Positions 1,200-58,700 of a DNA stretch of 64,000 nt are shown here, piece after piece. The notes beneath the pieces were generated by a model. It did not search any database and was not told the DNA's origin. It saw nothing but the letters and a program-made list of their open reading frames with translations. Where the stretch lies: assembly GCA_032622095.1 (NCBI GenBank), contig CP136065.1:218716151-218780150 (forward strand), in the 5' to 3' direction. How positions within the stretch are numbered: position 1 is the stretch's first letter; each line of letters starts with the position of its first letter. The translations under genes and the position numbers were made by a program. The DNA comes from Siphonodentalium dalli (Eukaryota > Mollusca > Scaphopoda > Gadilida > Siphonodentaliidae).

Positions 1200-2600
1200 C
1201 CACACTGCTTCAACAATATGTGCACATGATGTGACACGACACAAATTGAAAGAACATCAAAGGTTTCAAAGCTCTGCAGCCGATACTGTTATCTTTGATC
1301 GGCCATCGTGCAATGATGTTTATTTATTAGTGACTTGTCAATTTCACAACTGGTTTTTGTGTAAGTAATTCTACTAAAAAGTGTGGCTTTTGTTTTACCT
1401 TTTAACACTTTCATCGCCTTTGTTGGTATATTGTATTGTACCATTGTACCATTGTTCTGTTAAAACATAGTGTGTTTATTGCGTGCTCAATTTAATGCAA
1501 CTAATCAACTTGGGATTCTGGAGTCGACTTTTGGTGAGCAATTTGTTGACATTTTTTTTTTTGTAAATGTTTTTATTCAGACAATAGATCATTACAGAGA
1601 AGATTGTCTGTTTTTTATGTTTTTTTCTGGGGCTGCGGTGGGGATATACAAATTTCTTACATAGTTTCTAAAAATTAATTTGATATCACATATTCTATTA
1701 TCTAGTTAAATTTATTTGTTGCACATATACTATCGGGATTTCATACCAAAATAACAAATAATAAATACTGTCGTCTATGTATATGGAACATGATTTATCA
1801 TCGGTTAAGATAACAATGCATAATAGGCATATGCCATAGAACAGTGGTCAGTGATAATTTGAGTGAAATTTTTTTAACACTGCCGATTTTGTCAGGCGAT
1901 TTCCCAAGCGATCAAAGTCATGACCCTCTGTCATTGGTTTACCGGAAAAAAAGTCGTTTCAACACTATTTGCTTTACTTACCTACACAGAGTAGTCCAAG
2001 TTTCCTTCAACTCAAACCAGCTTGTGACATCTGTTTGTACAGTGCTTTATAAAAACAGCAGTATACCAAGTGCTTAAAAGGCCTTAAAATCCATCCATTT
2101 TTGCGTGAATCAAAGCTGATTCACAAGTTTGAGGGTACGGTTAATAAATATCAAATCCTGATTATGCCACAATTTGGTTGGGAGGGGGGTATGGTGTATC
2201 ACATATTCCATGTTAGAGACGGTTTGAAGGGCATTCCCCGGGAAAGTAAGCAAAGTATTGAAAATTGCACTTAGTGAAATTCTCAACAGTAAAATCTTAC
2301 TTTAAAATCTTAAAAAAGTTTACCCTCTCCCTGTATCTTCAGTCAAATGAGTTGATGTGAATGTGACACAAATGCAGAATTGCAATATTTATTGTACATG
2401 TATAGCTTTCAATTTTGAAAGATTTACTGTTATATTAGCGAATTGAAAAAAAACCACTCTGGTCTAATAGCTATGATATGATGTGTTTATATAACAAAGC
2501 AGAGATACATGTAAGTATGTGAGATTCAAACTTGATTCTCATGTTTCACTTTGCGAGAATCGTTTGCAAGAATTGATTCTAATTCTTGTACGAATTTTAA
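1200..2600. other. No supported gene; AT-rich sequence
   Basis: Only short chance frames occur here. The frame at 1470-1664 ends in a hydrophobic FFSGAAVGIYKF stretch faintly like the AIF anchor, but it has no acceptable donor and runs into a stop. Confidence 0.5.
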
Positions 2601-2608
2601 TCCCTGTG

Positions 2609-2760
2609 CAAGCCTTGAAATAGGGTGTCTGTCATTTGCAGAATGAGGTCCCCAGAGGGTGAATTTAGTGATGCTACCCCGCATAGTGGGCTAGCATCAC
2701 TAAATTAACCCTCTGGGGGACCTCATTCTGCAAATGACAGACACCCTATTTCAAGGCTTG
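2609..2760. mobile_element. Palindromic hAT-like MITE, family H1 (single, 152 bp)
   Basis: Near-perfect foldback from CAAGCCTTGAAATAG to its inverse, with the arm AGAATGAGGTCCCCAGAGGG. Flanks TCCCTGTG (2601-2608) and GCCCTGTG (2761-2768) look like an 8-bp target duplication with one mismatch. Confidence 0.7.
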
Positions 2761-2768
2761 GCCCTGTG

Positions 2769-5372
2769 CTATCAGGCAACAATTTAAAATATCATTGTTT
2801 CCCCTCACCCTACCACATGTTTCAAGAGTGATTAGGTATTTTATATTTTTTTCTTCTCAAAGAAGCCACTGGATAAGTTTATTCAGCCATTGGTCATGAA
2901 GTGCATGTACGTGATGAAACCCAAATAATAATTTTTACAGGTACATGATACTGACAAATACTGGACCAAATACCAGCTGTTTCATTTAGAGAGCAAACAT
3001 GAGGCCATGTCACGATATTTGATACTGTTCAATATTTGAGATTGATAAACCTGAGCTATTCATGTAGATACAGACGATCCAACTTATTAAAGGAATATGA
3101 TCCTGAAATTTTTTTAGTATTTTCTTTCAATATACCGATAATATATATATAAAATGTCCATAATGCGCATATAATCTAATATTCGGCCGCTAATCGTTAT
3201 TTTTATAACGATTAAAAACAATTCCGAAGTTAGCCGAAGATTTTGTGTTGTAGACGAGTCACGTGATCATCGGCCCGATCACATGATTGTCACGTGTAAA
3301 CATAAGCATAGTCACATAATCGATCACGTGGTAACTCATTGACAACGCATAGATACGCAACGATACCATAAGTTTGCACGCGCAAAGCGATCATGAATTC
3401 GATCGCCGCTTTTGAAGTTTGTCGCATTATGGGAGAACACAGCGAATGCAAATACATCGCAGTTCTCACAATTAAACGTCTTTAGCGTGTTATTATTATA
3501 TGTATCGCGATGTGTTATTATTATAAAGCCATGTCCGTATGTTACGTAGGATCTGGAAACTGGAATGTTTACGAGATGATAATTGTCTATTAGTATAATC
3601 TTTATATGAATATATAATATATAACTTGGACTATTCCGGTAACGAACAAAAAAAGAGAAACACGAGCACATGCTTATATAGATAACTGACCGTAAAATCG
3701 AAATAATATACGATAATTTATTAAAACATCGTGGTAGAATATAGTTATTAATATACCAAAGTCTTCATATGTGATTTATTTTACAGTGAACGCTCTTTAT
3801 TGAGTCATGGTAAAGGAAAATGGGGACTCGACTTAGAACAGTTGTCATCGTGATTATTTACTGATTACACCAATACACGTAAATACACGCACACGAACTT
3901 GCGATATACATGCTTTATATATCTGTCAAAGTCATAGCAATTTCCGGTTTATTAAACTCTTTTTATTCGCACCATATTAGGGATACCCTTAACATGGAAC
4001 GCTCTTTATTGAGTCATGGTGAAGGAAAAAGGGGACTCGAGTTGTCATCGTGAATACTTTACTAAATTATTCATCAATATACTCCCCACTTTATCTGCAA
4101 TTGTATGTATTCGTAACCATGACTGACTCGTCAAATTAAACGCTCTTTATTTGGTATATGTATTCGCTTTTTAGCGATAGGTTCGATTGGATATACTCAT
4201 GACTGGAAGCTCCAGCAAATTTATATTCTTTACGGGAGTTGACGTTTTTCTTGGGATGGCATTCTCGTCGGTGGTCCGTTTGTTTAATGTGGGGGTTGCG
4301 TCTCTTCTGAGTTGTCGTCGGTAGCCACTGTTAGGACCAAGTGTATTCGCGTTGTCCTCAAAACACCTTTTTTCGAAGTGGACGGAACAAATTCTGGACT
4401 ATTTCGTTGGCAACCACTTCAATAGTTTCTGATTTTGCGCAACGGGTTTCCCACAGAACTCCCGCCAAATGTCACGTAAACGAACGTCGTTTGGAAATGA
4501 ATGCAGAATTAATACCTAATTGAGAGTCACTTTTCCGGCCACAGCCGAAAACTGCATTTATGTGGCATTGTCACGAATGAATGATTGTAAATACGGGACA
4601 CTCGGGGCATATATATATATGTGGAAAATTAAAACAACATCGTGAACACGCACCCGAATAGAGTTCACATTTCGGCTCGTGTTTTATAAGCTTTATTTTT
4701 TACACGAAAGTGTTATCTACCCCGCTCAATTGGCCTTCTATATTTTTTGTCAAAACAATAACTTTCCAAACAGCACTTATGACAAGATAACTCACCGGGC
4801 GATGAAAATTCACCACGTGCACACAATGTTATTGACATGCCATGCCCCGCATTAATTCCATTACACTCACGCGCTGATGTCGATTCCGCATTTTCCATCG
4901 CCACTCATATGACGTCATATGGGTAGACACAATTAACTCCGACTCCGATTCCTTGTTTTTAATTAGTTTACTCATTTGACGTCATATGAGGATTTACGAC
5001 GGAGATAGCCGACAACCGGTGGGGATATTATTTATTTATTTCTAGGCTTATTTATTACGCGATTGTTATGGGACTTGGATCATTGTGATTACAATAGGGG
5101 TGGCCTTCCGATAGTGTTTTGTTGTTTCATCAGGATAGCAATCCTTTAACATAACGGAATATAACATATCCCGTTTATAACCATATTAACGTGGTCAAAT
5201 GACCATACAAAGTACACACAAAATGGGCCAAATATCGGAATCCCGCACATAAACATACACGCTTATTAACATAAATTCCTCTTGCACCGAGGCTATGTGA
5301 TAAAGCAGCATTAACTGTATCATAAAATGATGTATATCTGTCATTCTTTGAAACATATGGCTCTATCTAAGG
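2769..5372. other. Unassigned stretch with CpG-bearing segment and direct repeats
   Basis: 3240-5000 has more CpG than its surroundings. A block of about 70 bp (AACGCTCTTTATTGAGTCATG, GGACTCGA, GTTGTCATCGTGA) occurs at 3787-3862 and 3996-4058, and CGCTCTTTAT recurs at 4140. Two CRE palindromes TGACGTCA lie at 4910-4917 and 4977-4984. No convincing + strand exon was found. Confidence 0.4.
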
Positions 5373-6639: not shown

Positions 6640-29390
<22,751 letters not shown>

Positions 29391-33922: not shown

Positions 33923-35088
33923 GTGTAGGGAAATGATACCCTCATACTATTTGTTGAATTTGTTAATAAAGTGAAAGCTTCCTCCCAGTTATAACTCTGT
34001 GACAATTTTGTGGAAGGGGTGACTCAATTTGAAAATATGTTAAAAGTATTAAATTTGTGAATTTAAAGAGCATCGAATGTGCACTGGTGTACTTCTCCTT
34101 CTCGTCTCCCCTTGCCTAACTTTCATCATTTTATAGGCCAAATTCACATTTAATAATAATTAGACTGAAGTGCATCTCAATTGCATGGAAGTGAAATAAG
34201 ATTTGAAACCTTTGATGAAATCCAATTTGTCATGCTTTCAAAGTACAACTATGCAATATTCAGTATAATTGAATTGTACTATAGCAACCCCAATAGAAAA
34301 ATAGTACCTTTGCAGCACAATTGAATTGCACATCAGCACAGTTCAATTTACGCTTCAACATAGTTATTTGCCCAGAAAATGGCTAATCCAGATTCAAGTT
34401 TATTGAAATAAACGAAATGATCAGATGTATATCTTATCCATAGCTGCATTTACCTGGTCTTCAGGTCTTACAATCCAAAATGGTCATCTGGGATATAAGG
34501 TAAGGAAGGCATTTTTTACATTTATTCCTTATTTGAGCTGAAGTGCAAATAGGGGTACTGAATCATAACTAATTACACTGAAGCACACATTATTTGGGCT
34601 GAAGTGCATAATATATTTACCTTATTTGAGCTGAAGCTGAAATCATTTACGCTTAAGCATAAATAATTACACTGGAGCGCAAATACGTCCTATACATGTG
34701 CATGTATCATCAGATATATAATTGTAATTTGTTTGCACTGAAATTCAGATTGTCGTTTGTGCTAAAGCGCAAATAATTAATATATACCGATTCTGCCTAA
34801 ACTTAATTGCAATTGTGCCGAAGCGCAATTTTATTGTTTCAACACTTCAGTGACTTCCCGTACAATAAATTGTGCTTAAATATATATTATGGACTCTTAT
34901 GATATGAGTTTCAGTGCAATGTGAATTGTATTTGAGGCTTTTTCACATTTATTTATTATTTACACTTGAGTGAAAATATTTTACCGGTAATAAATTTATT
35001 TTGGCTTCAGCGCAAATCATGCATTTCAGTGCAAATATCTAAGCCTAACTGAGTTTCCTCAGGAATAACTGAGTCCATTTCATAGTGT

Positions 35089-35655
35089 GGCTGTAGGGGT
35101 CAAATTTGTCACCACATTTTAGTGTGTTGGATACCCAGCTTTACGAAAAGATGTTTTGGGTGCCCATCTTGCCCTTTGTGGGTTAAAGGCGGCATGGATG
35201 GCCTTCATTATAGGTTAAAATTTATAAATAACAGTTACCAAATTATGAAAATTTCCCCAAGAATATACTAAATAGTATAGTATAATGATAGTATGAATGC
35301 GATATTATCAACAAACACACTTTGTGCGAGCCAAGCATTTATTTATATACAGTGAGCTATAAGCAAAACACTCACACAATTTTTTAGGACAGTGATTCAC
35401 AGTGACACATTCAACACCGAAATCTTGAGAGCCAAAGATTAAAGAACGCTAAAGGTATGTTGTAAAAAAAACTTGGTGGCATTATGTTGCCGATAAAACT
35501 ACCCATGCGCCTTGTCATTGGATACAACTTGAGATTTTGGTGTCAACTGCGTGCTGAAAACAGCAAAGATCAGGCTGAGAACCGAAAACACCTTATTGTA
35601 AAGCTGGGTACCCAACACACCAAAATGTGGTGACAATAACCCCTTCAGCCATTGT
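35089..35655. mobile_element. Inverted-repeat element, TIR of about 60 bp
   Basis: GGCTGTAGGGGTCAAATTTG, CACCACATTTTAGTGTGTTG and ATACCCAGCTTTAC at the left match the inverse at 35596-35655 with few changes. Confidence 0.6.
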
Positions 35656-35744
35656 ATGGGTGGAGTGTCTGCAGTTATTATGCTTCTAGCAATTCATGCT
35701 TGACACCAACATCGGTAGGCCTATATGTTCAAGAGATGTCTTAA

Positions 35745-35970
35745 CCCTTTGAGTGCCAGGGGCCGATCTCATCGGCCCTAAACCTACAAAGTAAGTCTGT
35801 TAAAGAATATAAGAATAAATTATTAAAATTGTAAAAAAAAAGAAGAAATTGTTAGGCCAATGCATTCTCTTATATATGCGAGGCGACCTATGGTCGACTC
35901 GCATATATAAGAGAATGCATTGGCACAGGGTATATGGGTTGATACAAAAATCGACCTGGCACTCAAAGGG
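35745..35970. mobile_element. piggyBac-type MITE, family P1
   Basis: TTAA at 35741-35744 and 35971-35974; ends CCCTTTGAGTGCCAGG and CCTGGCACTCAAAGGG. Same internal palindrome as the copy at 162-585. Confidence 0.8.
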
Positions 35971-35974
35971 TTAA

Positions 35975-36273
35975 CCCTTTGGTGGGTAAAATGACAGGTG
36001 GAGCGATAGTTATGTTATTAGGTAGTTCTTGGGTAATATCATGTTACTGTGTAAATAACTTAGAAAATATGTCTCCTAAATGCGAACTTTTCATAGATAT
36101 CATGCGGATAGATATTATTTTTAGAGTACATAAGATTCTTGATTTTAATAATATTATATTATATGATTTATTTCTAACAATATGCCAATGTTACAATATT
36201 ACTCAGTTTATTTGCAAAAATATATTCACCCATTGATAGGACGTCATATATGATGTATTCACCCGCCAAAGGG
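35975..36273. mobile_element. piggyBac-type MITE, family P4
   Basis: Ends CCCTTTGGTGGGTAAA and CACCCGCCAAAGGG; TTAA at 35971-35974 (shared with the neighbouring P1 copy) and 36274-36277. Confidence 0.75.
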
Positions 36274-36734
36274 TTAATGGCCTGATGCGATTTGAGTTTA
36301 GGCAAAACACTTCATGTATAAAAATAATTTTTATTTGGCCTCCAGTGTTGAATTACTTGCTCCTCAGCGTAAATATGATGTGTTCAGTAACCCCAATTAT
36401 TTGCAGTTTCGTGCAAATGATTTGTGCTTCAGTGCAAATAAAGTTTGCTCAAATAAGGAATAAATGTGAAATTAATACTATCTATAATCTGGCCTCAAAA
36501 ATAAAAATGTAGTGAAAACAGTTTTAAGGTCCTTGTGGACCCATTTTTTTCCCAAAATTTGATGGAGTCCAAATAAAGGATTCTGTTCACTCATATTGGT
36601 AATAACAGCATCCAAGCCCATTGATGCAACATTTTAAGAGGATAATTGATGGTGGATTATGTTAGAAATACAAAATGTTAAATTTATAGCAGTTTTAAAA
36701 AATTATGTTTTCTTCTATCTGTAATGGTTCTTAT

Positions 36735-37502
36735 GTATGGGATGCCAAATTGACATTTAATAAATAATTGAGCTTAAGCGCAATAAGGAATCCCTTATTG
36801 CGCTTAAGCGCCATAAGGGAAGATCTATTTGAACTTAAGCGCAATAAGGAAATTCCTTATTGCACTTAAGAGCAATAAGGAATATCTTATTGCGCTTAAG
36901 CACAATAAGGAATTTCTTATTGCGCTTAAGTGCAATAAGGAATCTCTTATTGCGCTTAAGCACAATAAGGAACACTCTTATTGCACTTAAGCGCAATAAG
37001 GAATATTCTTATTGCGCTTAAGCACTATTAGATCTTCCCTTATTGCGCTTAAGCGCAATAAGGGATTTCTTAGTGCGCTTAAGTGAAATAAGACATTCCT
37101 CATGAGATCACCCCTATGCTAATAGTAAAATTATCCTATATTTGCTCCACCCATTGTACCATGGACTACACCATTTGAATTATAGGAGTTTATGTAATAG
37201 CGCAATAAGGAATATTCCTTATTGCGCTTAAGCGGAATTAGTTCTTATTGCGCTTAAGCGCAATAACAATATTCCTTATTGCGCTTAAGCACAATTTAAG
37301 AATACTTCTTATTGCGCTTAAGCGCAATAAGAGATTCCTTATTGCGCTTAAGCACAATAAGATATTCCTTATTGCGCTTAAGTGCAATAAGGAATTTACT
37401 TATTGCACTTATGCGCAATTAGATCTCCCTTACGCGCAATAAGGGATTTATTATTGCGCTTAAGCTCAATTATTTATTAAATGTCAATTTGGCTTGCCAT
37501 AC
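36735..37502. mobile_element. CTTAAG-palindrome element K1 (768 bp)
   Basis: TIRs start GTATGGGATGCCAAATTGAC and end in the inverse of GTATGGCAAGCCAAATTGAC; TTAT target duplication at 36731-36734 and 37503-37506. The interior is about eighteen words of the type TTGCGCTTAAGCGCAA spaced about 30 bp, each self-complementary, plus a unique segment of about 100 bp (37098-37200). No frame codes for a transposase. Confidence 0.8.
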
Positions 37503-37778
37503 TTATGCAGGATCCTCACAGATGTATAAGCACTCGAATTGGAAAATTAGGACGAGTTGGATCTTATGTTATCCAGCACTCTTGTTTGGTTGCACACTCT
37601 GTCCTCGAAAGTTTATTCCAATATAGGATAGTCCTTGTGTAGAAAGGATGTTCCAATTCTACAGATTTTGCCTTTATGATCTTGAATGGCCTTGTATTGT
37701 TACACTCATATTTATCCACTATATTGGATGTTTTGTAGCCTTCGAACTTGCTAGCGAATATCCTCCTATACCACTGCT

Positions 37779-38802
37779 GTATGGCAAGCCGTTTTCACAT
37801 TTTCGATTGATTTAGACTTTAAATAATTGGACTTAAGTCCAAATAGCGAATTGTACTTAAGTCCAAATACCACATAATTGTGAATTCGGCGAGGAATTGG
37901 ACTTAAGTCCAATTGATTTGGACTTAAGTCCAAATACCGATATTTTCATCTATTTGGACTTAAGTCCAATTCCTCGCCGAATTCACAATTATGTGGTATT
38001 TGGACTTAAGTACAATTCATTTGGACTTAAGTCCAATTCATCTGTATAAGAAACACCCCCATCAGATATTAAGCAGGTCTGGTTTTGCTCATAGGGCGGA
38101 GTTGTGGGAAAATGGCCGTTTACATTTGGGTCTAATTCTTGTTGATCTTGTTAATTGTTACCTTTCTCAACATATATAATGAATCGAGCAAATTATACAA
38201 ATAAGACACTTAGTAAATGCAATAAACGAAACTGCGTGTAGCCTACACTACATGCTGTCAAATAACAATTGAATCAAGTCGTGAATTAATTTTACTTCAT
38301 TCATGCATGCAGTTAGCATTTATTAAGATGCCAATTCGGATTCGAAACATTTTCAATCTCGGCATGCCGAAAACAAGCCACGTGGCAAAGGGGACGTACG
38401 GAGTTAGTCTTGGAGTCAGGAATGCCCTGGTTAGTACGGAGTTTGACTGTCAATCAAAACTTGCAGGAATATACCATTACAAAGAAGGGGACTATCGTTT
38501 CAAACCAGATGAATTGGACTTAAGTCCAAATGAATTGGACTTAAGTCCAAATGAATTGGACTTAAGTCTAAATCAATTCACTAATTGGACTTAAGTCCAA
38601 TTATTGGACTTAAGTCCAATTATTTGGACTTAAGTCCAATTATTTGGACTTAAGTCCAAATCAATTCGCTAATTGGACTTAAGTCCAATTCATTTGGACT
38701 TAAGTCCAATTCATTTGGACTTAAGTCCAATTATTTGGACTTAAGTCAAATAATTGGACTTAAATCTAAATCAATCAAAAATGTGAAAACGGCTTGCCAT
38801 AC
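37779..38802. mobile_element. CTTAAG-palindrome element K2 (1024 bp)
   Basis: TIRs start GTATGGCAAGCCGTTTTCAC, with TGCT target duplication at 37775-37778 and 38803-38806. Two clusters of TTGGACTTAAGTCCAA words (37840-38040 and 38508-38765) flank a unique core (38040-38507). The left cluster itself forms a larger hairpin on GAATTCGGCGAGGAATTGGA and its inverse. It shares the first 12 TIR bases and the CTTAAG core with K1. Confidence 0.8.
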
Positions 38803-39252
38803 TGCTGACCTTTGGTTGTAATAGTCCTTTGGATGTCAGTAGCCCATACACTATCTTACCCAGGGACATGGCTAGAGGGTCTCTGTTGGGGGGGGGGGGG
38901 GTGTCCACCTTTGTAATTCCAACTGCACCTCCCAAGGAATCAGATTATTTGCACCCCCTTTGCACCTCAGTGCTCAGGCTGATAGCCTATTCATGAGCCA
39001 TGGTGCTATATACCTACATGTAGTTTGAGAACATTCAGATATTGTGAATCTATTCATGTAAATTGCATAAAGCCTAACATCTAGTTTTCTAACTCGAGAC
39101 TCATGCACATGGTTACGGACGAGAGACCAATACACAACGTGTCTACCATGGTTCGGCCTGGTCTGAGAATTTTTTTACCAAAGTTGGGGGGGGTGAGACA
39201 ACCCCCCAACCCCCTGTCACCTCGTCCCTGATCTTACAGTCTTTAATGATTC

Positions 39253-52700: not shown

Positions 52701-55700
52701 GATATCGATTTTAAATGTAAACTGAGCTTCCTGTACGCTTTCAAAACCCCTTAGTCTTCTCGCATCCAAACGGCCAAGAATTATTAAGCATTTGAGTTAT
52801 TACCATGTTTTAGACCTAAATAGGTTCATGACTACATGATCCTTCCCAAGGTTCTTACCCGTAACATATCAGGGTCAAGCCTTGAAATAGTGTGTCTGTC
52901 ATTTGCAGAATGAGGTCCCCAGAGGGTGAATTTAGTGATGCTACCCCGCATAGCAGGCTAGCATCACCAAATTCACCCTCTGGGAACCTCATTCTGCTGA
53001 GGTGTAAGCAGAATGAGGTCCCCAGAGTGTGAATTTGGTGATGCTAGCCCGCTATGCGGGGGTAGCATCACTAAATTCACCCTCTGGGGACCTCATTCTG
53101 CAAATGACAGACACACTATTTCAAGGCTTGATCAGGGTTGTCTTGCACAAAGCTGGATATAGTGTGTCTCATTTGCATAATGAGGTCCCCAGAGGGTGAA
53201 TTTGGTGATGCTATCCAACACAGTGGGCTAGCATCATCAAATTCACCCTCTGGGGACTTATTCTTAGGCCTCATCTTCTGGAAAGTATCTATAGTCTCAA
53301 AATTAAAATTGTTTTTAGTCACTTTTTCCCATATGATCAGTTTCTATATCCCCTAATTTTCAGAAGATAAAATGCGTAAAAGTGAGTAATGGGTGAATAT
53401 CACCAATTTCAACTGGGGAACTTCAATCTGATCCTAGGTCTCCCATAGCAGTTGAGGCTGAAGCAGAATGAGGTTCCCAGAGGGTGAATTTGGTGGTGCT
53501 AGCCTGCTGTGCAGGATAACTTCGCTAAATTCACCCTCTGGGGGGCCTCATTCTGCAAATGACACTATTTGCAGACTTGCAAGGTTCTTTCTCATAACAT
53601 TGTATCAGGGTCGTTCTACATGTATTGTATTTTATCATTATAGAATATAACCCTCCTAATGCTGATCATGTTCTTTGCTTCAGGCGCACAAGAATGACCT
53701 CTTCTATTTCCGACCTGAAATAAAATACAAGGATATAAAAATAAATGCAGATGCAGTAGGTAAGTCAGAACTAAAATTAATACATAAGCTCGCCGATCGG
53801 AAGACAAATTTTGAATGGAGCACGGTCTCAATGGCACAATTCACATTACATACTGATTCCTAATTATATTACATACTGATTCCTAATTATATTACATACT
53901 GATTCACAACTATATTACAATCTGATTCACATTACATACTGATTCCTAATTATATTACATACTGATTCCTAATTATATTACATACTGATTCACAACTATA
54001 TTACAATCTGATTCACATTACATACTGATTCCTAATTATATTACATACTGATTCCTAATTATATTACATACTGATTCACAACTATATTACAATCTGATTC
54101 ACATTACATACTGATTCCTAATTATATTACATACTGATTCCTAATTATATTACATACTGATTCACAACTATATTACAATCTGATTCACATTACATACTGA
54201 TTCCTAATTATATTACATACTGATTCACAATGCATACTGATTCACAACTATAATACATACTGATTCACATTACATACTGATTCACAATTATACATACTGA
54301 TTCACAACTATATTACAATCTGATTCACATTACATACTGATTCACAACTATATTACAATCTGATTCACATTACATACTGATTCCCAACTATATTACAATC
54401 TGATTCACATTACATACTGATTCACAACTATATTACAATCTGATTCACATTACATACTGATTCCCAACTATATTACAATCTGATTCACATTACATACTGA
54501 TTCCTAATTATATTACATACTGATTCACATTACATACTGATTCACAATTATACATACTGATTCACAACTATATTACATACTGATTCACATTACATACTGA
54601 TTCACATTACATACTGATTCACATTACATACTGATTCCAAATTATATTACATACTGATTCACATTACATACTGATTCACAATTATACATACTGATTCACA
54701 ACTATATTACATACTGATTCACATTACATACTGATTCACATTACATACTGATTCACATTACATACTGATTCCAAATTATATTACATACTGATTCACATTA
54801 CATACTGATTCACAATTATACATACTGATTCACAACTATATTACATACTGATTCACATTACATACTGATTCACATTACATACTGATTCACAACTATATTA
54901 CATACTGATTCACATTACATACTGATTCCAAATTATATTACATACTGATTCACATTACATACTGATTCCTAATTATATTACATACTGATTCACATTACAT
55001 ACTGATTCACAATTATTCATACTGATTCACATTACATACTGATTCCAAATTATATTACATACTGATTCACATTACATACTGATTCCAAATTATATTACAT
55101 ACTGATTCACATTACATACTGATTCACAATTATTCATACTGATTCACATTACATACTGATTCCAAATTATATTACATACTGATTCACATTACATACTGAT
55201 TCCAAATTATATTACATACTGATTCACATTACATACTGATTCCAAATTATATTACATACTGATTCACATTACATACTGATTCACAATTATACATACTGAT
55301 TCACAACTATATTACATACTGATTCACATTACATACTGATTCACATTACATACTGATTCACATTACATACTGATTCCAAATTATATTACATACTGATTCA
55401 CATTACATACTGATTCACAATTATACATACTGATTCACAACTATATTACATACTGATTCACATTACATACTGATTCACATTACATACTGATTCACAACTA
55501 TATTACATACTGATTCACATTACATACTGATTCCAAATTATATTACATACTGATTCACATTACATACTGATTCCTAATTATATTACATACTGATTCACAT
55601 TACATACTGATTCACAATTATTCATACTGATTCACATTACATACTGATTCCAAATTATATTACATACTGATTCACATTACATACTGATTCCAAATTATAT

Positions 55701-58700
55701 TACATACTGATTCACATTACATACTGATTCACAATTATTCATACTGATTCACATTACATACTGATTCCAAATTATATTACATACTGATTCACATTACATA
55801 CTGATTCCAAATTATATTACGTACTGATTCACATTACATACTGATTCACAATTATTCATACTGATTCACATTACATACTGATTCCAAATTATATTACATA
55901 CTGATTCACATTACATACTGATTCCAAATTATATTACATACTGATCCACATTACATACTGATTCACATTACATACTGATTCACATTACATACTTATTCAC
56001 AATTATACATACTGATTCACAACTATATTACATACTGATTCACATTACATACTGATTCCTAATTATATTACATACTGATTCACATTACATACTGATTCAC
56101 AATTATACATACTGATTCACAACTATATTACATACTGATTCACATTACATACTGATTCACAACTATAATACATACTGATTCACATTACATACTGATTCAC
56201 AACTATATTACATACTAGTACTGATTCACATTACATACTGATTCACAACTATAATACATACTGATTCACAACTATATTACATACTGATTCACAACTATAT
56301 TACATACTGATTCACATTACATACTGATTCACAACTATAATACCGCTGAGTGCTCAATACTTAAAAATTTAAAATTAATACATACTGATTCACATTACAT
56401 ACTCATTCAGAACTATAATACACGCTGAGTGCTCAATACTTAAAATTTAAAATTAATACATACTGATTCACATTACATACTCATTCACAACTATAATACA
56501 TACTGATTCACATTACATACTGATTCACAATTATACATACTGATTCACAACTATAATACATACTGATTCACATTACATACTGATTCACAATTATACATAC
56601 TGATTCACAACTATAATACATACTGATTCACATTACATACTGATTCACAACTATATTACATACTGATTCACATTACATACTGATTCACAACTATAATACA
56701 TACTGATTCACAACTATATTACATACTGATTCACAACTATATTACATACTGATTCACATTACATACTGATTCACAACTATAATACCGCTGAGTGCTCAAT
56801 ACTTTAAAATTTAAAATTAATACATACTGATTCACATTACATACTCATTCAGAACTATAATACACGCTGAGTGCTCAATACTTAAAATTTAAAATTAATA
56901 CATACTGATTCACATTACATACTCATTCACAACTATAATACCGCTGAGTGCTCAATACTTAAAATTTAAAATTAATACATACTCATTCACATTACATACT
57001 CATTCACATTACATACTCATTCACAACTATAATACACGCTGATTCACATTACATACTGATTCACAATTATACATACTGATTCACAACTATAATACATACT
57101 GATTCACATTACATACTCATTCACAACTATAATACACGCTGATTCACATTACATACTGATTCACAATTATACATACTGATTCACAACTATAATACATACT
57201 GATTCACATTACATACTGATTCACAACTATATTACATACTGATTCACATTACATACTGATTCACAACTATATTACATACTGATTCACATTACATACTCAT
57301 TCACAACTATAATACACGCTGATTCACATTACATACTGATTCACAATTATACATACTGATTCACAACTATAATACATACTGATTCACAACTATAATACAT
57401 ACTGATTCACATTACATACTCATTCACAACTATAATACACGCTGATTCACATTACATACTGATTCACAATTATACATACTGATTCACAACTATAATACAT
57501 ACTGATTCACATTACATACTGATTCACAACTATATTACATACTGATTCACATTACATACTGATTCACAACTATATTACATACTGATTCACAACTAAATTA
57601 CATACTGATTCACAACTAAATTACATACTGATTCACATTACATACTGATTCACAACTATATTACATACTGATTCACAACTATATTACATACTGATTCACA
57701 ACTAAATTACATACTGATTCACATTACATACTGATTCACAACTATATTACATACTGATTCACAACTATATTACATACTGATTCACAACTAAATTACATAC
57801 TGATTCACAACTAAATTACATACTGATTCACATTACATACTGATTCACAACTATATTACATACTGATTCACAACTATATTACATACTGATTCACATTACA
57901 TACTGATTCACAACTATATTACATACTGATTCACAACTATATTACATACTGATTCACAACTAAATTACATACTGATTCACATTACATACTGATTCACAAC
58001 TATAATACCGCTGAGTGCTCAATACTTAAAAATTTAAAATTAATACATACTGATTCACATTACATACTGATTCACAACTATAATACATACTGATTCACAA
58101 CTATATTACATACTGATTCACAACTAAATTACATACTGATTCACATTACATACTGATTCACAACTATAATACCGCTGAGTGCTCAATACTTAAAAATTTA
58201 AAATTAATACATACTGATTCACATTACATACTCATTCACAACTATAATACACGCTGAGTGCTCAATACTTAAAATAAAAAATTAATACATACTGATTCAC
58301 AATTGATACATACTCATTCACATTACATACTCATTCACATTACATACTCATTCACATTACATACTCATTCACAACTATAATACATTCTGAGTTCTCAATA
58401 CTTAAAATTGCCTATCATAAACTTTTTATTGGGGCCTTCAGTAAATTTACATCACCTCTATGCCCAGATATTGAGTTTTTGTCAAATAAAATTAAAATAT
58501 TTTGACACTATTGGATTATATAACTAAACTTCACATTGATATATGTTGAATTTTATCCTAAGATCAAATAGACCACAGTATTTCAGAAAAATTAAAAAAA
58601 CCAAAAAAAATATATCTACCTACCCTAATTCTCAGAGAGGGTGGTACCCCAAACACAGGTATAATTTTGTTTGGCCTTATGCAGTAACATACTAATCTGT

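Follow-up and report, generated by a model that had tools for sequence, protein, structure and literature searches.

The window, by which we mean the whole 64-kb stretch of DNA analyzed here, contains two neighboring transposable elements, K1 and K2, whose interiors are largely made up of short palindromic words (Table 1). Both are bounded by terminal inverted repeats (TIRs) starting with TATGG, show two mismatches each between the first 39 bp of their two ends, and carry 18 CTTAAG hexamers each. A preliminary description had placed two TIR elements with a common TIR start at these positions, and we confirm both points. However, it had reported 4-bp target duplications (TTAT, TGCT) and had counted one base too many as the start of the TIR. 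The base adjoining TATGG varies with the flank, both among copies of the K1 type and among those of the K2 type that were retrieved without a fixed G. Therefore, it belongs to the duplication rather than to the element, and the duplication comprises 6 bp, CTTATG in K1 and CTGCTG in K2.

Table 1. Features of K1, K2 and the third member (window positions), and insertions of a TTAA-specific element in K2-type copies (positions within the respective locus).
Feature	Position	Strand	Remark
K1, non-autonomous element with W1 words, 766 bp	36736..37501	.	termini TATGG..CCATA
K1 left target site duplication, 6 bp	36730..36735	.	CTTATG
K1 right target site duplication, 6 bp	37502..37507	.	CTTATG
K1 left W1 word array	36768..37088	.	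pitch mostly 30-31 bp
K1 right W1 word array	37199..37470	.	
K2, non-autonomous element with W2 words, 1022 bp	37780..38801	+	termini TATGG..CCATA
K2 left target site duplication, 6 bp	37774..37779	.	CTGCTG
K2 right target site duplication, 6 bp	38802..38807	.	CTGCTG
K2 5' W2 word array	37827..38036	.	
K2 3' W2 word array	38514..38770	.	pitch mostly 19-21 and 29 bp
K2 word-free core	38045..38510	+	deletion derivative of gene region
Older third member	approx. 34502..36483	.	imperfect CTTCAG/CTGAAG words, nested inverted-repeat elements
TTAA-specific element insertions	L001 (1324, 1916, 3914, 4497), L002 (179, 770), L009 (886, 1484), L027 (2256)		

Among 35 end pairs, one of which (L058) is a chance TIR match, the 6-bp duplication is exact in 28, carries one mismatch in two (L012, L016) and is absent in five (L008, L017, L052, L056, L058); a 7-bp match occurs at none of them. 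Independent end pairs are fewer by three, as K1 and L011 represent one insertion and L071-L073 another, and in L002-L010 only four of the six duplicated bases are independent because the outer two were set by the search pattern. TIRs and duplications, the reproducibility of which had been put forward as a check, are thus reproducible. An apparent CNNNNG target preference, seen among the K2 copies retrieved first, was produced by the search pattern itself, which required a G before TATGG; the rule is absent in L068-L076, K2-type copies found with a different query. Two loci have inverted rather than directly duplicated flanks, L056 at 1913-3501 (CGTAGC..GCTACG) and L008 (GAAAAG..CTTTTC). K1 and L011 occupy the two copies of a duplicated region about 1.55 Mb apart, with flanks matching at 92% and 98% over approximately 50 bp. 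This one insertion measures 766 bp in K1 and 367 bp in L011, and thus the array length changed after insertion.

An older third member had been suggested at 34518-36467. Its imperfect words and inverted ends (67% inverted match between 34514-34620 and 36369-36471) speak for it, while no target duplication was recognized around it (about 34502-36483). Two inverted repeats are nested inside, at 35081-35658 and 35741-35974, the latter with TTAACCCTTTG ends. Elsewhere in the window, an open frame at 7145-7567 reads partly like what we take to be an AIFM1 exon, and a GC skew of about -0.61 extends across 4 kb (54001-58000).

The word of K1, W1, reads TTGCGCTTAAGCGCAA and that of K2, W2, reads TTGGACTTAAGTCCAA; both are palindromes centered on CTTAAG. 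K2 contains 18 perfect palindromes with arms of at least 5, compared with a mean of 1.5 and a maximum of 6 in 500 shuffles, while the six in K1 (shuffle mean 2.2, maximum 8) are not significant on their own. Nowhere else in the 64 kb does one 10-bp palindrome recur at least four times within 3 kb. In the 2.2 Gb searched (nine contigs), exact W1 was found at 10,339 places and exact W2 at 3,931, and the same letters read backwards at none. The dense self-complementary CTTAAG interior, in which each element uses a single type of word, is confirmed, and the genome-wide counts lie far above chance. The further claim that the words are uniform within each element holds for K2, where 14 of 19 words are perfect, and is weak for K1 with 3 of 20. 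Strict helical phasing was rejected: the dominant pitch is 20-22 and 30-31 bp, but distances of 23-27, 36 and 46 bp occur as well.

For the comparison between copies, 16-mers were scored against both W1 and W2. In 12 K1-type elements, 152 of 153 words are closer to W1, one is equidistant and none is closer to W2. All 360 words of 19 K2-type elements are closer to W2, as are all 225 of 20 further partial K2 loci, which gives 585 of 585 for the K2 type. Hence, in the copies examined the two words are kept apart, which answers an earlier call to check for mixing. L001-L010 were chosen by a word-free TIR pattern and L021-L040 by exon 1 DNA, so that their purity is not a selection effect; L011-L020 and L068-L076 were chosen with queries that contained some words. 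L015 and L074 (one end only) as well as L054, L057 and L058 were left out of the word table, and L008, L056 and L067 were scored without being counted among the 12 and the 19. L008 measures just 120 bp; its TIR is K2-like, and of its three words two are W2-like and the third is equidistant.

Perfect words account for 266 of 360 in the K2-type and 47 of 153 in the K1-type elements. Of the 161 mismatches in K1-type words, 109 affect one of the four CpG positions. Among these, 67 are C-to-T or G-to-A changes, and 29 are changes of C4 to A or G13 to T, which are not of the CpG type and are present in the TIR-adjacent word. Judged by these positions and types, the mixture within K1 is largely CpG decay combined with a special end word. 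The uniformity of K2 is partly a matter of youth: at 12 K2 5' ends (including L071-L073, three rows from one insertion), TIR, spacer and leader differ by only 0.3-0.4%. Words in this set show 1.15% mismatches and spacers 0.38%. Constraint on the words was thus not found among these 12 ends, the words being less conserved than the spacers, and this speaks against strong selection on them in the K2 burst, or else the burst is too recent to reveal any.

As non-autonomous DNA transposons, K1 and K2 match the IS3EU superfamily. Sola and Chapaev, which had been considered as superfamilies, are characterized by 4-bp duplications; they do not fit the 6-bp duplication and the termini TATGG..CCATA, and these two features point to IS3EU. 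CACTA/En-Spm membership, which implies CACTA termini and a 3-bp duplication, was rejected likewise. The parts of the IS3EU literature available to us describe target duplications of usually 6 bp and TA..TA termini (PMC10045372) and, for fungal members, TIRs of more than 30 bp with ends TAYGG..CCRTA (PMC12730594). TIRs of more than 30 bp and termini of the TAYGG..CCRTA form are present in both K1 and K2, and the 6-bp duplication also flanks two relatives of 20-23 kb. Further copies were retrieved by TATGG and thus add no independent support as to the termini. An rve-type DDE transposase is encoded in relatives with the same TIR type and W1, not in K1 or K2 themselves, where no more than a portion of exon 1 is left.

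These features bear on a reading in which the palindromes are not protein sites, but form hairpins or cruciforms in single-stranded DNA during foldback-like transposition or replication. Dense inverted repeats are able to fold back, and the inverted flanks of L008 and L056 would fit such a process. However, the elements have TIRs and exact 6-bp duplications and their relatives a DDE transposase, which indicates ordinary cut-and-paste transposition, and pairing alone does not need identical letters in every unit. We regard this reading as very improbable.

The gene remnants in K2-type copies link these elements to larger ones. K2-type cores are differing deletion products from one parent: K2 in the window keeps just the beginning of exon 1 with its ATG at about 38179, while other copies keep approximately 28 codons or more. 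The ATG and the beginning of the reading frame, preserved in some copies as a 29-residue piece, have at least 137 matches at E up to 10 (138 scored). Weak matches with 42-59% identity lie on the same strand, 5-12 kb upstream of matches to PF24764 (rva_4), which we take to be the IS3EU transposase. The K2 piece shares homology with the first exon in transposase-bearing relatives and is about 42% identical to that of a family carrying W1.

This W1 family comprises 22 copies with a helix-turn-helix exon that is 94-100% identical, and its 28-bp TIR occurs 106 times exactly in the genome. The copy at C3:161135439 shows, in succession, the TIR, W1 words, exon 1, further W1 words, the helix-turn-helix exon, another exon and the catalytic exon. 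Its 3' TIR was not found within the 17 kb read (L061, L062), and a scan of seven frames from these 17 kb for cargo genes revealed only the transposase above the curated cut-off. The full length of the family therefore rests on two other elements, C5:135229015-135248892 (19.9 kb, flanked by exact GTTCGC duplications) and C2:183567724-183590687 (23.0 kb, flanked by exact TATACT duplications), each pair found among the matches listed. Their sequence was read at the ends; what they enclose is known from matches to rva_4, to the helix-turn-helix exon and to exon 1. The 3' ends contain 13 and 14 CTTAAG hexamers, respectively, which are W1-like by score, and the 5' ends three each, with about 100 bp read inside the element.

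As to the autonomous copy called for earlier, transposase-bearing relatives thus exist for W1, but searches with rva_4 (the best 150 of 241 candidates), the helix-turn-helix exon and exon 1 detected no W2 copy that also has a catalytic or helix-turn-helix exon. The nearest such exon to a K2-type exon 1 among the matches listed is 131 kb away; this comparison used rounded positions with neighbors merged, covering 81 exon 1 matches, 31 helix-turn-helix matches (standing for 33) and 111 rva_4 matches (standing for 126). K2 might instead have been moved by the W1-family transposase through the near-identical TIR, in which 2 of 23 letters differ, with W2 being irrelevant to that enzyme. The result of the searches for a W2 transposase agrees with this, as do the high identity among the 22 W1-family copies and the divergence of only about 0.4% outside the words among K2 5' ends. 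On the other hand, an exon 1 with a mere 42% or so identity to that of the W1 family implies that the K2 parent had its own gene, and every scored K2-type word is closer to W2. On balance we consider mobilization by the W1 transposase unlikely.

The preliminary description called K1 and K2 sister elements. They are indeed related, but the term is too narrow, as they belong to a group of six or more related families, of which four carry W1, one carries W2 and one a CTTCAG word. Exon 1 is homologous (tblastn) among the K1 type, the K2 type, L054/L056 and L061 and, more weakly, L078 and L079. W1 is carried by K1, L054/L056 (and L077), L061 and L078, and W2 by K2; L079 has the imperfect CTTCAG/CTGAAG word, a decayed form of which occurs in the third element of the window. 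Since W1 is the commoner word among related families, it is probably the older word of the group and W2 the derived one, a polarity deduced from commonness, not from a tree. In L001, a K2-type copy, and L056 the first three words occupy matching positions, every one of them with altered letters, and some spacers, e.g., AAATACCACAT, are common to K2-type and W1 elements; beyond the first words, the alignment of the two loci is poor. Shared places and spacers are suggestive of words having been replaced within a pre-existing array.

Word arrays are not confined to the CTTAAG families. Out of at least 126 rva_4 matches, 17 loci (11 + 6) were picked for differing score and frame length, not at random. 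A word array adjoins 12 of the 17, with at least eight different words; it lies within the piece read in ten (L042, L046-L051, L085-L087) and in separately read 5' ends in L041 and L043. Eight of the 12 arrays consist of perfectly palindromic words, namely W1 twice, CCTGATATATCAGG, TCGTGGCCACGA, GGCGTTTAAACGCC, TTGTGATATCACAA, TCCTAATTAGGA and TCGAGATCTCGA, while the words are nearly palindromic in L051 and L042 and not palindromic in L046 and L087. The pitch is mostly 20-23 bp and, in most arrays, near 21 bp for unrelated words. Array and transposase are joined within one element in L051, a 3.07-kb element with TACGGAAGCC ends, a one-mismatch duplication and arrays at both ends, and in the L041 family; elsewhere the evidence is adjacency. 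L050 is a deletion copy in which just the C-terminal portion of rva_4 is retained. No array was seen in the piece read at the remaining five loci (L044, L045, L088-L090), which by eye resemble one protein lineage, and no comparable palindrome array in L055, L058-L060 and L062, which like the window served for comparison.

Further repeats were observed in and around these loci. A TTAA-specific inverted-repeat element with AGGGGTACTGTAC ends sits inside CTTAAG words of K2-type copies, so that the arrays double as insertion sites for it in at least four loci (Table 1). Inside or beside the elements at L043, L052, L055 and L059 lies a tandem repeat (about 164 bp, around AAATCCAAGATGGC).

The distribution of words informs the question of what reads them. 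A host DNA-binding protein, e.g., a silencer or another nuclear factor, might bind the words, the elements then gathering host sites, and the thousands of exact W1 and W2 places in the genome would be in line with this. Different words beside different transposase lineages, however, are not explained by one host factor and argue for the element's own protein as the reader; a host reader thus appears rather improbable to us.

We attach a similarly low probability to the view that the arrays are neutral minisatellites, in which slippage lengthens and shortens the run of a short unit, palindromes simply being susceptible to it. Several observations agree with it: at L047, L048 and L049 the arrays form regular tandem repeats whose spacers are rather uniform, the one insertion shared by K1 and L011 differs in length, words are no more conserved than spacers between K2 copies, and a recurrent palindrome is also present in a 73-bp satellite that adjoins L048 and is unrelated to these elements. 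Yet identical K2 words are parted by spacers of varied sequence and length, for which unit duplication alone is insufficient, and the perfect palindromy of 8 of the 12 arrays and the pitch near 21 bp that unrelated words have in most of them also count against it.

The transposase proteins were compared in seven aligned sequences from non-CTTAAG families. The D, D and E residues of the presumed catalytic motifs are invariant. Mean identity is 38% and 37% in the N-terminal domains versus 49% in the catalytic part; the presumed recognition helix, with 44%, is not the most variable stretch of the N-terminal domain. A structure model of the L047 protein contains, within roughly the first 100 residues and with fair confidence, the helices of two helix-turn-helix-like units. 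Its mean pLDDT is 55, and it is usable only for about the first 110 residues, the rest being poor. A fold search yielded nothing with an E-value of 0.001 or lower and was given no weight.

Taken together, we think it probable that K1 and K2 are derivatives of IS3EU-kind elements whose arrays serve as subterminal sites for an element-encoded dimer, probably the transposase, with words specific to each family. K1 and K2 would be deletion derivatives of larger elements encoding an rve-type DDE transposase with helix-turn-helix domains, and their interiors would correspond to the subterminal arrays of these parents. Each palindromic word is a putative binding site for a dimer of the element-encoded protein, and an array may allow numerous dimers to assemble close to either end, where they would act in end recognition, synapsis or self-regulation. 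The suggestion of the preliminary description that the arrays are sites for a dimeric DNA-binding protein is accordingly the best available reading, binding being something we infer. Each family would possess its own word, K2 deriving from a lineage whose whole array came to carry W2 and whose protein may have undergone a matching change, the specificity shift proposed in the preliminary description. A stricter lock-and-key version, in which every lineage has its own word in tens of copies, read by its own transposase dimer, and lineages split by replacing both the word across the entire array and the part of the transposase that reads it, seems possible to us, if somewhat doubtful.

If each word is indeed read by its own transposase, a single genome would contain eight or more naturally occurring combinations of a DNA-binding domain with its word. 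A change of specificity at repeated sites without loss of mobility would then become testable, as would the way in which arrays are homogenized and a possible role of private words in preventing cross-mobilization.

The superfamily of these elements is ordinary, while their arrays are unusual. They differ from IS3EU as described by the large arrays of family-specific palindromic words and by element sizes of 20-23 kb; the available portions of PMC12730594 and PMC8268682 describe no such arrays. Related arrangements exist in other superfamilies. Hermes, a hAT element, has a multimeric transposase whose BED domains bind several subterminal sites, one pair of which is quasi-palindromic, as far as the accessible text of PMC10368747 goes. 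It resembles the elements studied here in having several subterminal sites near the ends, but belongs to another superfamily and has a few short sites compared with 10-70 palindromes here. A further parallel comes from soybean. According to the sections of PMC2613891 at our disposal, the CACTA elements Tgmt* and Tgm1 carry subterminal motif arrays at both ends that are read by an element-encoded protein of the TNPA type, the motif diverges between subfamilies of one genome, and one member measures 20.5 kb. The likeness to CACTA/En-Spm, within the limits of that partial source, thus extends to many motif copies beside both ends, a motif differing between subfamilies and the size of one member. 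The differences concern the ends (CACTA with a 3-bp duplication there, TATGG with 6 bp in K1 and K2) and the motif itself: CACTA motifs are repeats that pair into stem-loops, whereas the words described here are, in most families, palindromes in their own right. By analogy, the IS3EU arrays would most likely act like the CACTA arrays that are read by an element-encoded protein.
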